Source of the DNA: Promethearchaeota archaeon
GTDB lineage: Archaea > Asgardarchaeota > Lokiarchaeia > Sigyniarchaeales > SOKP01
Direction: 5' to 3'
Assembly: GCA_030603385.1 (NCBI GenBank)
Contig: JAUVXW010000010.1
Coordinates: forward strand, 1-64,000
Length of the DNA: 64,000 nt
Below are positions 49,066 through 52,786 of this stretch, one piece after another (within the stretch, counting starts at the first letter, position 1; each line of letters begins with the position of its first letter). Made by a program: the position numbers and the translations under genes. The notes beneath the pieces were generated by a model, which had not been told where the DNA came from, made no database searches, and saw only the letters and a list, made by a program, of their open reading frames with translations.

Positions 49066-49106
49066 TAATAAGAAGGTATTTACGTTGTAAATAACCGTAC
49101 TTATTA
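49066..49106 (+). ncRNA. Hairpin leader of the 5S rRNA precursor
   Basis: TAATAAG (49066-49072) pairs with CTTATTA (49100-49106), GG with CC, and TATTTAC (49077-49083) with GTAAATA (49087-49093) around a GTT loop. It ends 22 bases before the permuted 5S and could be a processing signal or part of the primary transcript. A TATA-like AAAAAGTTTAAT lies near 49019-49030. Confidence 0.4.
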
Positions 49107-49128
49107 AATGGTAAACCCGTGGTTTTAA

Positions 49129-49336
49129 AACCACATAAATGTACAACATTCAGTAAAGCGCCGGAAGTTAAACTATTAAGCGTTGCAGGATAGTACTGCA
49201 GTAAATAGTCTGTGGGAAACCTCAAACTGTAAGTTCGCTTACGGTCATGGTTTATAAGGATAATACCCGGTCCCATCTGAAAATCCAGCTTGAATCAAGG
49301 TGGATCGGGAACCCGGAAACGCTTATTTATGTGGTT
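49129..49336 (+). rRNA. 5S ribosomal RNA, circularly permuted
   Basis: All parts of an archaeal 5S rRNA are present, in swapped order. The canonical 3' part (49161-49233) has CCGGAAGTTAAAC, AAGCGTT, GGATAGTACTGCAGT and CTGTGGGAAACCT. It ends in ACTGTAAG, which pairs through a TTCG loop (49234-49237) with CTTACGGT (49238-49245), i.e. helix I closed at the natural termini. The canonical 5' part follows: ACGGTCATGG, then AATACCCGGTCCCATCTGA and GGGAACCCGGAA, with an extra hairpin (49283-49305) in loop C. New ends form a perfect 12-bp helix, AACCACATAAAT (49129-49140) with ATTTATGTGGTT (49325-49336). Relative to the Haloarcula 5S, helix IV/V shows a compensatory G-C to C-G change. No 16S or 23S is linked. 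Confidence 0.85.
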
Positions 49337-49440
49337 AAACCTAATTTACTTCCCTTAAAGATATTAGATTTTGTTTAAAAATAATTTTTTTATGTGATCA
49401 ATTATAAGTATATCATAATTAACAGTGGTAAATTGGAAAA

Positions 49441-51160: not shown

Positions 51161-51682
51161 ATGCCACAGAAGTTCATACTAAAAATCTTAACAGCCGGGG
51201 AAGGGGGAGTTGGAAAAACAACGCTCCTACATAGGTATGTGGAGGGGAAATTCTCAGCAGATACTCGAATGACGATAGGTGTCGAATTTTTTTTGAAAGA
51301 GACGGAGATCAATGGGAATCAATGCACCCTGCAGCTCTGGGATTTTGGAAGTCAAGAAAGGTTTAGATTTTTGCTTGAAAGCTATGTTCTAGGTGCAAAA
51401 GGTGCAATGCTTATGTTCGACCTCACACGTATGTCATCACTTGGAAACCTTGAACAGTGGCTTAACATCGTTCGCAAGGGAGATCCAAATCTTCCAATTC
51501 TTTTCCTTGGTACTAAATTAGATTTGGAGGATGAAATTCAAGTAGATGATGATTATGCCCAGTCATTTCTTAATGAATACAATTTAATTGACTTTCTTAA
51601 AATCTCATCAAAAACGGGTGAAAATGTAAGTCAAGCATTTGAATTATTAACACAAAAAATCTTAGAGCGACAGACTTATTGA
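51161..51682 (+). CDS. Small GTPase with altered G3 motif
   Basis: A 173-aa Rab-like G domain. G1 is GEGGVGKTT (13-21) and the switch I Thr is in MTIGVEF (T38). G3 reads D61-F-G-S64-Q65, so the glycine equivalent to Ras Gly60 is Ser. G4 is TKLD (118-121) instead of NKxD, and G5 is ISSKTG. Loss of Gly60 blocks the active switch II conformation in Ras, so this protein may hydrolyse GTP poorly or need a partner. There is no lipidation cysteine. Its stop overlaps the TTG start of the PIN gene by four bases (TTGA). Confidence 0.9.
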   Translation: MPQKFILKILTAGEGGVGKTTLLHRYVEGKFSADTRMTIGVEFFLKETEINGNQCTLQLWDFGSQERFRFLLESYVLGAKGAMLMFDLTRMSSLGNLEQWLNIVRKGDPNLPILFLGTKLDLEDEIQVDDDYAQSFLNEYNLIDFLKISSKTGENVSQAFELLTQKILERQTY

Positions 51683-52276: not shown

Positions 52277-52786
52277 ATGTCCAAACTTCTTAAAATAATA
52301 ACAGCCGGAGATGGAGGTGTAGGAAAAACAACACTCCTTTATCGATATGTGGAGAATAGATTCCTAGCAAACACCGCTATGACTCTAGGTGTAGAATTTT
52401 TCATCAAGGAAACTTATATTAAAGGAGAAACAATTAATTTACAAGTTTGGGATTTTGGTGGACAAGATCATTTCAGACCTTTATTAAAAGATTATTCTGT
52501 CGGTGCTAAAGGTGCTCTTTTACTTTTTGACCTTACGAGACCATCAAGCTTAGAAAATATTGAACAATGGGTTAATATTTGTAGAGGTGAAAATCCAGGA
52601 ATCCCGATAATTTTCTTAGGTACTAAATGGGATTTGACTGAATCAATTACTGTCGATGATAAATATGCGCGGAGTTTTCCAAAGGAGTATGGCTTTTTTA
52701 AATATTTAAAAATTTCTTCGAAAACTGGCGCAAACGTGAATTTGGCGTTTAGATTATTAGCAAAAGAAATTATTAAAAATCTTTAG
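52277..52786 (+). CDS. Rab-like small GTPase
   Basis: A 169-aa paralogue of the GTPase at 51161. G1 is GDGGVGKTT (11-19), the switch I Thr is in MTLGVEF, G3 is DFGGQ (59-63, Gly intact), G4 is TKWD (116-119) and G5 is ISSKTG. The TKxD form of G4 replaces the usual Asn with Thr in both paralogues, so they belong to one subfamily. It should be a functional GTPase, unlike its neighbour, whose Gly is lost. No lipidation cysteine. Confidence 0.92.
   Translation: MSKLLKIITAGDGGVGKTTLLYRYVENRFLANTAMTLGVEFFIKETYIKGETINLQVWDFGGQDHFRPLLKDYSVGAKGALLLFDLTRPSSLENIEQWVNICRGENPGIPIIFLGTKWDLTESITVDDKYARSFPKEYGFFKYLKISSKTGANVNLAFRLLAKEIIKNL

Follow-up and report, generated by a model that had tools for sequence, protein, structure and literature searches.

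In the 64,000-nucleotide stretch of Lokiarchaeia DNA analysed here (the window), positions 49129-49336 of the forward strand hold a 5S rRNA gene whose two halves lie in permuted order. The 3′ half, comprising loop B through helices II, V and IV (49167-49225), is identified by its match to a covariance model (R1, described below) and by its fold, and it comes before the 5′ half. It runs into the natural 3′ end of the 5S sequence (49226-49233, ACTGTAAG), which a UUCG loop (49234-49237) joins to the natural 5′ end (49238-49245, CTTACGGT). These two fused ends, assigned from the sequence, R1 and the fold, form an 8-bp helix I with one G-U pair, capped by the UUCG, and the reading of 49226-49245 bears out what an earlier note on this DNA had claimed for them. 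Then comes the 5′ half, which according to the R1 match contains helix II and the 5′ strand of helix III and extends to loop C (49246-49281). An extra 30 nt in loop C (49282-49311) separates it from its last segment (49312-49318), which consists of the end of loop C, the 3′ strand of helix III and two A residues, as placed by the search for a splice motif and by the fold. The permutation break lies in loop B, directly after the helix III 3′ strand; in this detail the gene differs from the earlier note, which placed the new ends in the region of loop C, helix III and loop B.

The gene is flanked by a leader and a trailer, also on the forward strand, whose outermost parts (49129-49140 and 49325-49336) are perfectly complementary over 12 nt when the sequence is read directly and can form a clamp helix. 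The hexamer CCGGAA occurs twice, at 49161-49166 and at 49313-49318. A TATA-like box (TTATTAAA, 49101-49108) located about 26 nt upstream of the clamp is likely to be the promoter, and AT boxes (CTTATAAAATGG, CTTATTAAATGG) were seen by eye at a similar distance in relatives of the same genus. A run of T residues at 49385-49391 may act as a terminator. Farther along the window, two genes for Ras-like small GTPases, proteins that are common in Asgard archaea, were recognized by eye at 51161-51682 and 52277-52786.

Identification of the gene

So that the idea of a permuted 5S rRNA could be tested without circularity, the covariance model R1 was derived from 16 normal 5S genes belonging to other Asgard families (f2, f8, f21, f27 and f28). 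The halves of these genes were exchanged in silico and joined via TTCG, with nothing else altered. R1 matches the window at 49165-49288 (48.8 bits, E 3.8e-11), and when all 3.9 Mb of the genome are searched nothing else is credible (E 2.3e-9, the next match having E 7.8), which upholds the claim of a circularly permuted 5S gene in an Asgard archaeon. The swapped halves, a trait shared with the mitochondrial permuted 5S family mtPerm-5S, are evident both from the sequence and from R1. Rearranging them into the canonical order recovers 5S sequence and structure, as judged by R1 and by the fold of the spliced circle.

With the gathering score as threshold, the Rfam 5S model RF00001 reported nothing in the window. 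The earlier note had also raised the matter of a second, normal 5S gene, and RF00001 found none in the same genome at E up to 1e-3 (an assembly of 58 contigs that is 94% complete), while matching 11 of 14 control genomes. An Rfam search of the locus itself at E up to 10 returned no 5S family, RF00001 and the mtPerm-5S model RF02547 included.

Distribution in the Asgard phylum

A blastn search with the locus gave matches in 30 of 58 genomes, its own included, and all 30 belong to the window's family, f1. R1 reaches much farther: with a cut-off of E 1e-3 it has matches in 188 of the phylum's 227 genomes. By tally of these matches, full-length permuted 5S genes are present in 136 of the 227 genomes and in 21 of 29 families (f1, f4-f7, f9-f20, f22, f23, f25 and f26). 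The comparison with relatives that the earlier note had suggested thus shows the same order, with R1 matching 55 of 65 genomes in f1. These genome counts are lower bounds, because the stricter filters applied above 40 genomes lose weak matches. Another 52 of the 188 R1 matches fall in the five families with normal 5S order (f2, f8, f21, f27 and f28), an order established by RF00001 and, for the genes from which R1 was built, by reading. Among the matches listed, those in normal-order families score at most 47.1 bits, and the two that were read (G223 and G211) are half matches to normal 5S genes. Family f3 also looks permuted by eye (L009), and R1 gave no match in f24 or f29. The standard model RF00001 matches just 75 of the 227 genomes, a reach that the permuted order would explain.

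The R1 region of the window's sister locus (L017) is identical to a stretch in the Lokiarchaeia MAG ABR03, and that of L079/L080 (f9) is identical to a stretch in the Odinarchaeia MAG RPA3. An exact-pattern scan of a genome collection described as covering 84,980 species, using a pattern that recovers 31 of 137 known permuted loci, gave 29 matches, of which 28 are labelled Lokiarchaeota/Lokiarchaeia and one Odinarchaeia. When R1 was run at E up to 1e-9 on 165 genomes of other phyla in the same domain, the one match proved on reading to have the native order; this negative is soft, since R1 was trained on Asgard genes. Within the phylum, f2 is normal yet f1 and f4 of the same order are permuted, and the evolutionary direction would therefore appear to need either reversal or repeated origin.

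Several arrangements were observed alongside this distribution. One genome of f19 (G111) carries a tandem pair of permuted 5S genes with 157 nt between them (L118). The middle part of this locus can be read as a 5S in native order that contains a spacer, which may be a way for the normal order to return. Three normal 5S genes form a tandem array with a spacing of about 374 bp in a single-contig genome of f2 (L004, L013 and L015 in G042). A normal-order 5S of f8 (L124 in G211) has about 32 extra bases in the helix II 3′ strand, in which a simple bulge-helix-bulge (BHB) motif was sought and none found. The tmRNA model matched L075 at 1895-2067 and L084 at 326-498 with small E-values and with scores under the gathering cut-off.

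Native-order 5S in permuted families

RF00001 scored over its cut-off in five genomes of permuted families. As candidates for a native-order gene of the host, all five were rejected. The 5S genes in G013 (L001), G145 (L158) and G098 (L049) look bacterial by eye and are likely to lie on contaminating contigs. The 5S in G070 is archaeal, occurs on a foreign-looking contig with a fused RpoB-RpoA′ gene and is probably foreign, and the match in G087 is part of a permuted gene. Weaker RF00001 matches in permuted families overlap permuted genes where the two were compared, two matches of G089 falling outside this comparison.

The native-order archaeal 5S at G070:C117:8277-8414 (minus strand; L218) is interrupted, precisely where the permuted genes have their break, by a BHB intron of 23 nt. 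By analogy, a gene of this kind could be the step before permutation; the authors of the Thermoproteus study suggested an intron-bearing gene as a pre-permutation step for SRP RNA (PMC4731332). A native-order BHB intron of the G070 type was sought in 392 genomes and found in G070 alone.

The permutation break is a predicted splice motif

The sequence around the break can be drawn as a BHB, the motif recognized in archaeal RNA splicing, and we predict that it is one. In the window, AAGCG in the leader (49156-49160) pairs with CGCTT in the trailer (49320-49324) to form the flanking helix H2, and CCGG in the leader (49161-49164) pairs with the CCGG of the helix III 3′ strand (49313-49316) to form the central helix, leaving the bulges AAG (49165-49167) and AAA (49317-49319). 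Among five candidates in the stretch, this is the sole one that has no G-U pair and yields a canonical product. A BHB is cleaved after the second of its three bulge nucleotides, which would place the cuts at 49166/49167 and 49318/49319. The rule gives an exon of 49167-49318, and its joined ends, CCCGGAA-GTTAAAC, correspond to canonical 5S.

For comparison across loci, 137 of the 140 R1 matches were used (L093 duplicates L036 and was omitted, as were two L009 matches). Setting aside six loci with a moved break (type B, below) and four truncated ones, and merging identical flanks, gives 104 unique type A loci from 21 families, which are related rather than independent, with 35 in f1. To pass a strict test, a locus had to have at the predicted register a central helix of 4 bp, a trailer-side bulge of 3 nt and a flanking helix of at least 3 bp, and 67 of the 104 loci do. 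With lengths of 0, 1, 2, 4, 5, 6 and 7 nt for this bulge instead, the numbers passing are 0, 2, 4, 4, 1, 11 and 4. Trailers swapped between families pass in a mean of 1.2 loci (maximum 5) and shuffled leaders in a mean of 0.44 (maximum 4). When one mismatch is allowed, 80 of 104 loci pass, compared with 1, 2, 7, 9, 7, 19 and 5 for the other bulge lengths and a mean of 4.5 (maximum 11) after shuffling.

The central helix occurs in 17 forms, including CCGG/CCGG (21 loci), CGTG/CACG (9) and CTGG/CCAG (8), with CAGG/CCTG, CGGG/CCCG, CCAG/CTGG, CCGA/TCGG and CAAG/CTTG among the others, and the pairs of H2 vary across loci with compensation. These data bear on the repeated CCGGAA, which the earlier note had regarded as what a tandem duplication followed by loss of the outer halves would leave behind. 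The hexamer is indeed present twice, but a duplication is not the best account of it. Of the 67 loci that pass the strict test, 46 have tetranucleotides that pair with each other yet differ in sequence, as the helix of a BHB demands, and strands that are complements and not copies, as they are in every form save the palindromic CCGG/CCGG, argue against duplication remnants. The resemblance to a repeat in the window arises because CCGG is self-complementary.

The motif is not uniformly strong. The strict test is failed by 37 of the 104 loci, and 24 fail even the relaxed one. The largest group among the failures is f15, where 6 of 15 loci pass the strict test; none of three passes in f4, and the single loci of f5, f14 and f23 do not pass either. 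A few failures (L033, L107) stem from misplaced anchors. In addition, the loci show little or nothing of the third helix that a classical BHB has on its exon side, and in f17 the joined product is 1 nt longer than the canonical sequence.

Moved breaks and further predicted introns

In six loci, the break lies in loop C and not in loop B (type B: L027 and L029-L032 of genus g1, and L012 of g6). In all six, a script located a BHB that has a bulge of 3 nt and is formed against the helix III 5′ strand. The joined product of the five g1 loci, ACCCGGTC-CCATCCGAACCCGG, equals the canonical loop C found in their relatives, and that of L012, ACCCAGAA-ACATTCCGAACCTGG, has the same length as the g1 product. 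With bulges of 1, 2, 4 or 5 nt the script returned two solutions, which were unrelated and came from L012. These motifs have weaknesses, with one G-U pair in the central helix in five of the six loci and an H2 of just 3-4 bp. That a moved break should obey the same rule and lead to the same canonical outcome seems hard to explain without splicing.

The 30-nt insert in loop C of the window, which is absent from the sister locus L017, is likely to be a BHB intron in its own right. It can be written TCTG-AAA-ATCCA ... TGGAT-CGGG-AAC, and predicted cutting yields CCCATCTGAA-CCCGG. Among 13 unique loci with loop C inserts, eight fit a BHB intron with an H2 of at least 4 bp and the remaining five fit with an H2 of 3 bp, and all products have the canonical loop length. 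At most one insert fits when the first bulge is given another length, in a test that constrains the first bulge alone and leaves the second free. A different position is used in L023 (G011), where helix IV carries an insert that we predict to be a BHB intron of 30 nt, and whose removal gives GTTGCGATCTATGG, the sequence of the intronless L021. L033 (G009) has a helix IV insert like that of L023, unsolved by the script as the stretch examined began inside it. Four loci of genus g5 (L037, L043, L044 and L165) carry a long insert in the fused helix I hairpin, for which a BHB solution was sought and none found.

Proposed maturation

We consider it highly probable, on the strength of these sequence patterns, that the permuted 5S transcript is cut at the BHB by the tRNA-splicing endonuclease and joined by RtcB, giving a 5S rRNA that has the canonical sequence and is likely circular. 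In the window, EndA would cut after 49318 and before 49167, and RtcB would join the resulting ends to create the junction ...CCCGGAA-GTTAAAC..., while the 30-nt loop C insert would be spliced out by the same route. Helix III would be complete only after the leader is cut, because in the BHB the leader tetranucleotide holds its 3′ strand. The product would be 122 nt long and would fold as 5S rRNA. Folded as a circle, this 122-nt RNA has helix I with its UUCG loop, helix II and helix III, and the energy model splits the IV/V arm into two hairpins. We infer from the UNCG make-up of the loop that it is retained after splicing, and if it stays, the mature 5S would be a ring.

The genome encodes the enzymes that this pathway calls for. 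RtcB is present (E 1.3e-167), as are two EndA paralogues of 198 and 200 amino acids. One paralogue has, and the other lacks, a histidine that we take to be the catalytic residue, and its occurrence in just one of the two suggests a heteromeric enzyme.

Splicing would also change the role of the clamp. The earlier note was correct about the perfect 12-bp pairing, but its proposal that the clamp holds the ends of the RNA fares less well, since with a BHB splice motif at the break the clamp is more likely to be part of a removed leader and trailer than of the mature RNA. Were there no splicing, the mature 5S would be linear and permuted, and the clamp would keep its loop B ends together, an arrangement like that of the mitochondrial permuted 5S. 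The clamp helix is visible by eye in many loci, 24 of 104 loci show no BHB under the relaxed test either, and a mitochondrial permuted 5S has been published (cited in PMC10085705). Moreover, the minimum-energy fold of the window precursor keeps the clamp and does not form the BHB; the leader CCGG pairs there with the helix III 5′ strand, which is possible because CCGG is palindromic. However, an unspliced RNA gives no reason to expect that a 4-bp complement and a 3-nt bulge should keep a single register, as they do in 67 of 104 loci (against 0-11 at other bulge lengths). Nor does it predict the canonical sequence that emerges from the moved break in all six type B loci, or the BHB-type inserts in loop C and helix IV, and we regard it as unlikely.

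It is somewhat easier to imagine, though still doubtful, that the spliced circle is later cut at the UUCG loop and that the ribosome holds an ordinary linear 5S. Permuted tRNA genes mature in this manner (PMC10085705), and a UNCG loop is missing from 40 of 95 unique loci (38 have other loops, and in two no hairpin was found). By the same simple hairpin finder, however, 55 of the 95 do have a UNCG tetraloop (UUCG in 41), as expected for a loop that is retained, and a cut site is not recognizable by eye. Far less credible than either is a pseudogene or an assembly artefact, with a normal 5S gene in the missing part of the genome. An incomplete assembly in 58 contigs would allow for it, but the order is conserved through 21 families in which the helices vary and yet remain paired, and no credible native-order 5S is present in the five RF00001-positive genomes of permuted families. 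Single-contig assemblies also carry the permuted order (G004, G009, G056, G065, G106, G107 and G108), and it is this conservation across the phylum, such assemblies included, that excludes an artefact, which the earlier note had named as a possible refutation. Splicing at the BHB, with a retained loop, is the reading that we prefer.

We are evenly divided on a broader proposal, that the 5S rRNA of most Asgard ribosomes would be a covalently closed ring, which the tRNA-splicing enzymes produce from a permuted gene, often with further introns. The permutation would then have arisen early, been undone in few lineages, and been missed because standard 5S models are blind to the permuted form. 5S rRNA is nearly universal. 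If the splicing reading holds, Asgard ribosomes would be built with a ring-shaped or re-cut 5S, archaea regarded as standing near the origin of eukaryotes would depend on tRNA splicing for their 5S, and 5S gene order would become a character for Asgard phylogeny.

Relation to known systems

To our knowledge, no permuted 5S gene has been described outside organelles, and a literature search, preprints apart, found no archaeal one. One relative in kind is mtPerm-5S, the mitochondrial permuted 5S rRNA reportedly described by Valach in 2014. It shares the permuted 5S rRNA with the Asgard genes but is organellar, and we know of no BHB processing in its maturation. Its model, RF02547, which the earlier note had proposed to run, matches none of the 227 Asgard genomes, the control genomes likewise being without a match, and on ten permuted loci at E up to 0.1 none was among the matches listed.

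Other RNAs share elements of the scheme. Permuted tRNA genes also have swapped halves and a circularized precursor (PMC10085705), but the tRNA circle is cut open again, whereas in Asgard 5S the natural ends are closed by a tetraloop. Circular 16S and 23S pre-rRNAs are generated by EndA and RtcB acting on BHB motifs, in Asgard archaea as well, and that study states that 5S does not follow this route (PMC12918454). Those rRNAs have the ordinary gene order and are circularized after transcription, in contrast to the Asgard 5S, where the gene itself is permuted. Circular 5S RNA has been seen in archaea too, in reads from Halobacterium and Sulfolobales; unlike the product proposed here, these circles have variable ends and are suggested to be part of degradation (PMC12558985).

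A further close parallel is the SRP RNA of Thermoproteus tenax (PMC4731332). There, too, a universal RNA is permuted and its canonical gene is missing, and leader and trailer form a BHB at the break, with processing by the splicing endonuclease and RtcB proposed. Cutting of the Thermoproteus permuted SRP RNA by the splicing endonuclease is described, and the RNA was found to be circular. The two cases differ in scope and in kind of evidence. The SRP RNA example concerns one genus and comes with experiments, whereas the Asgard example concerns 5S rRNA in most families of a phylum and comes from sequence comparison. The Asgard genes also go beyond the Thermoproteus tenax case in having two break sites and further predicted BHB introns.
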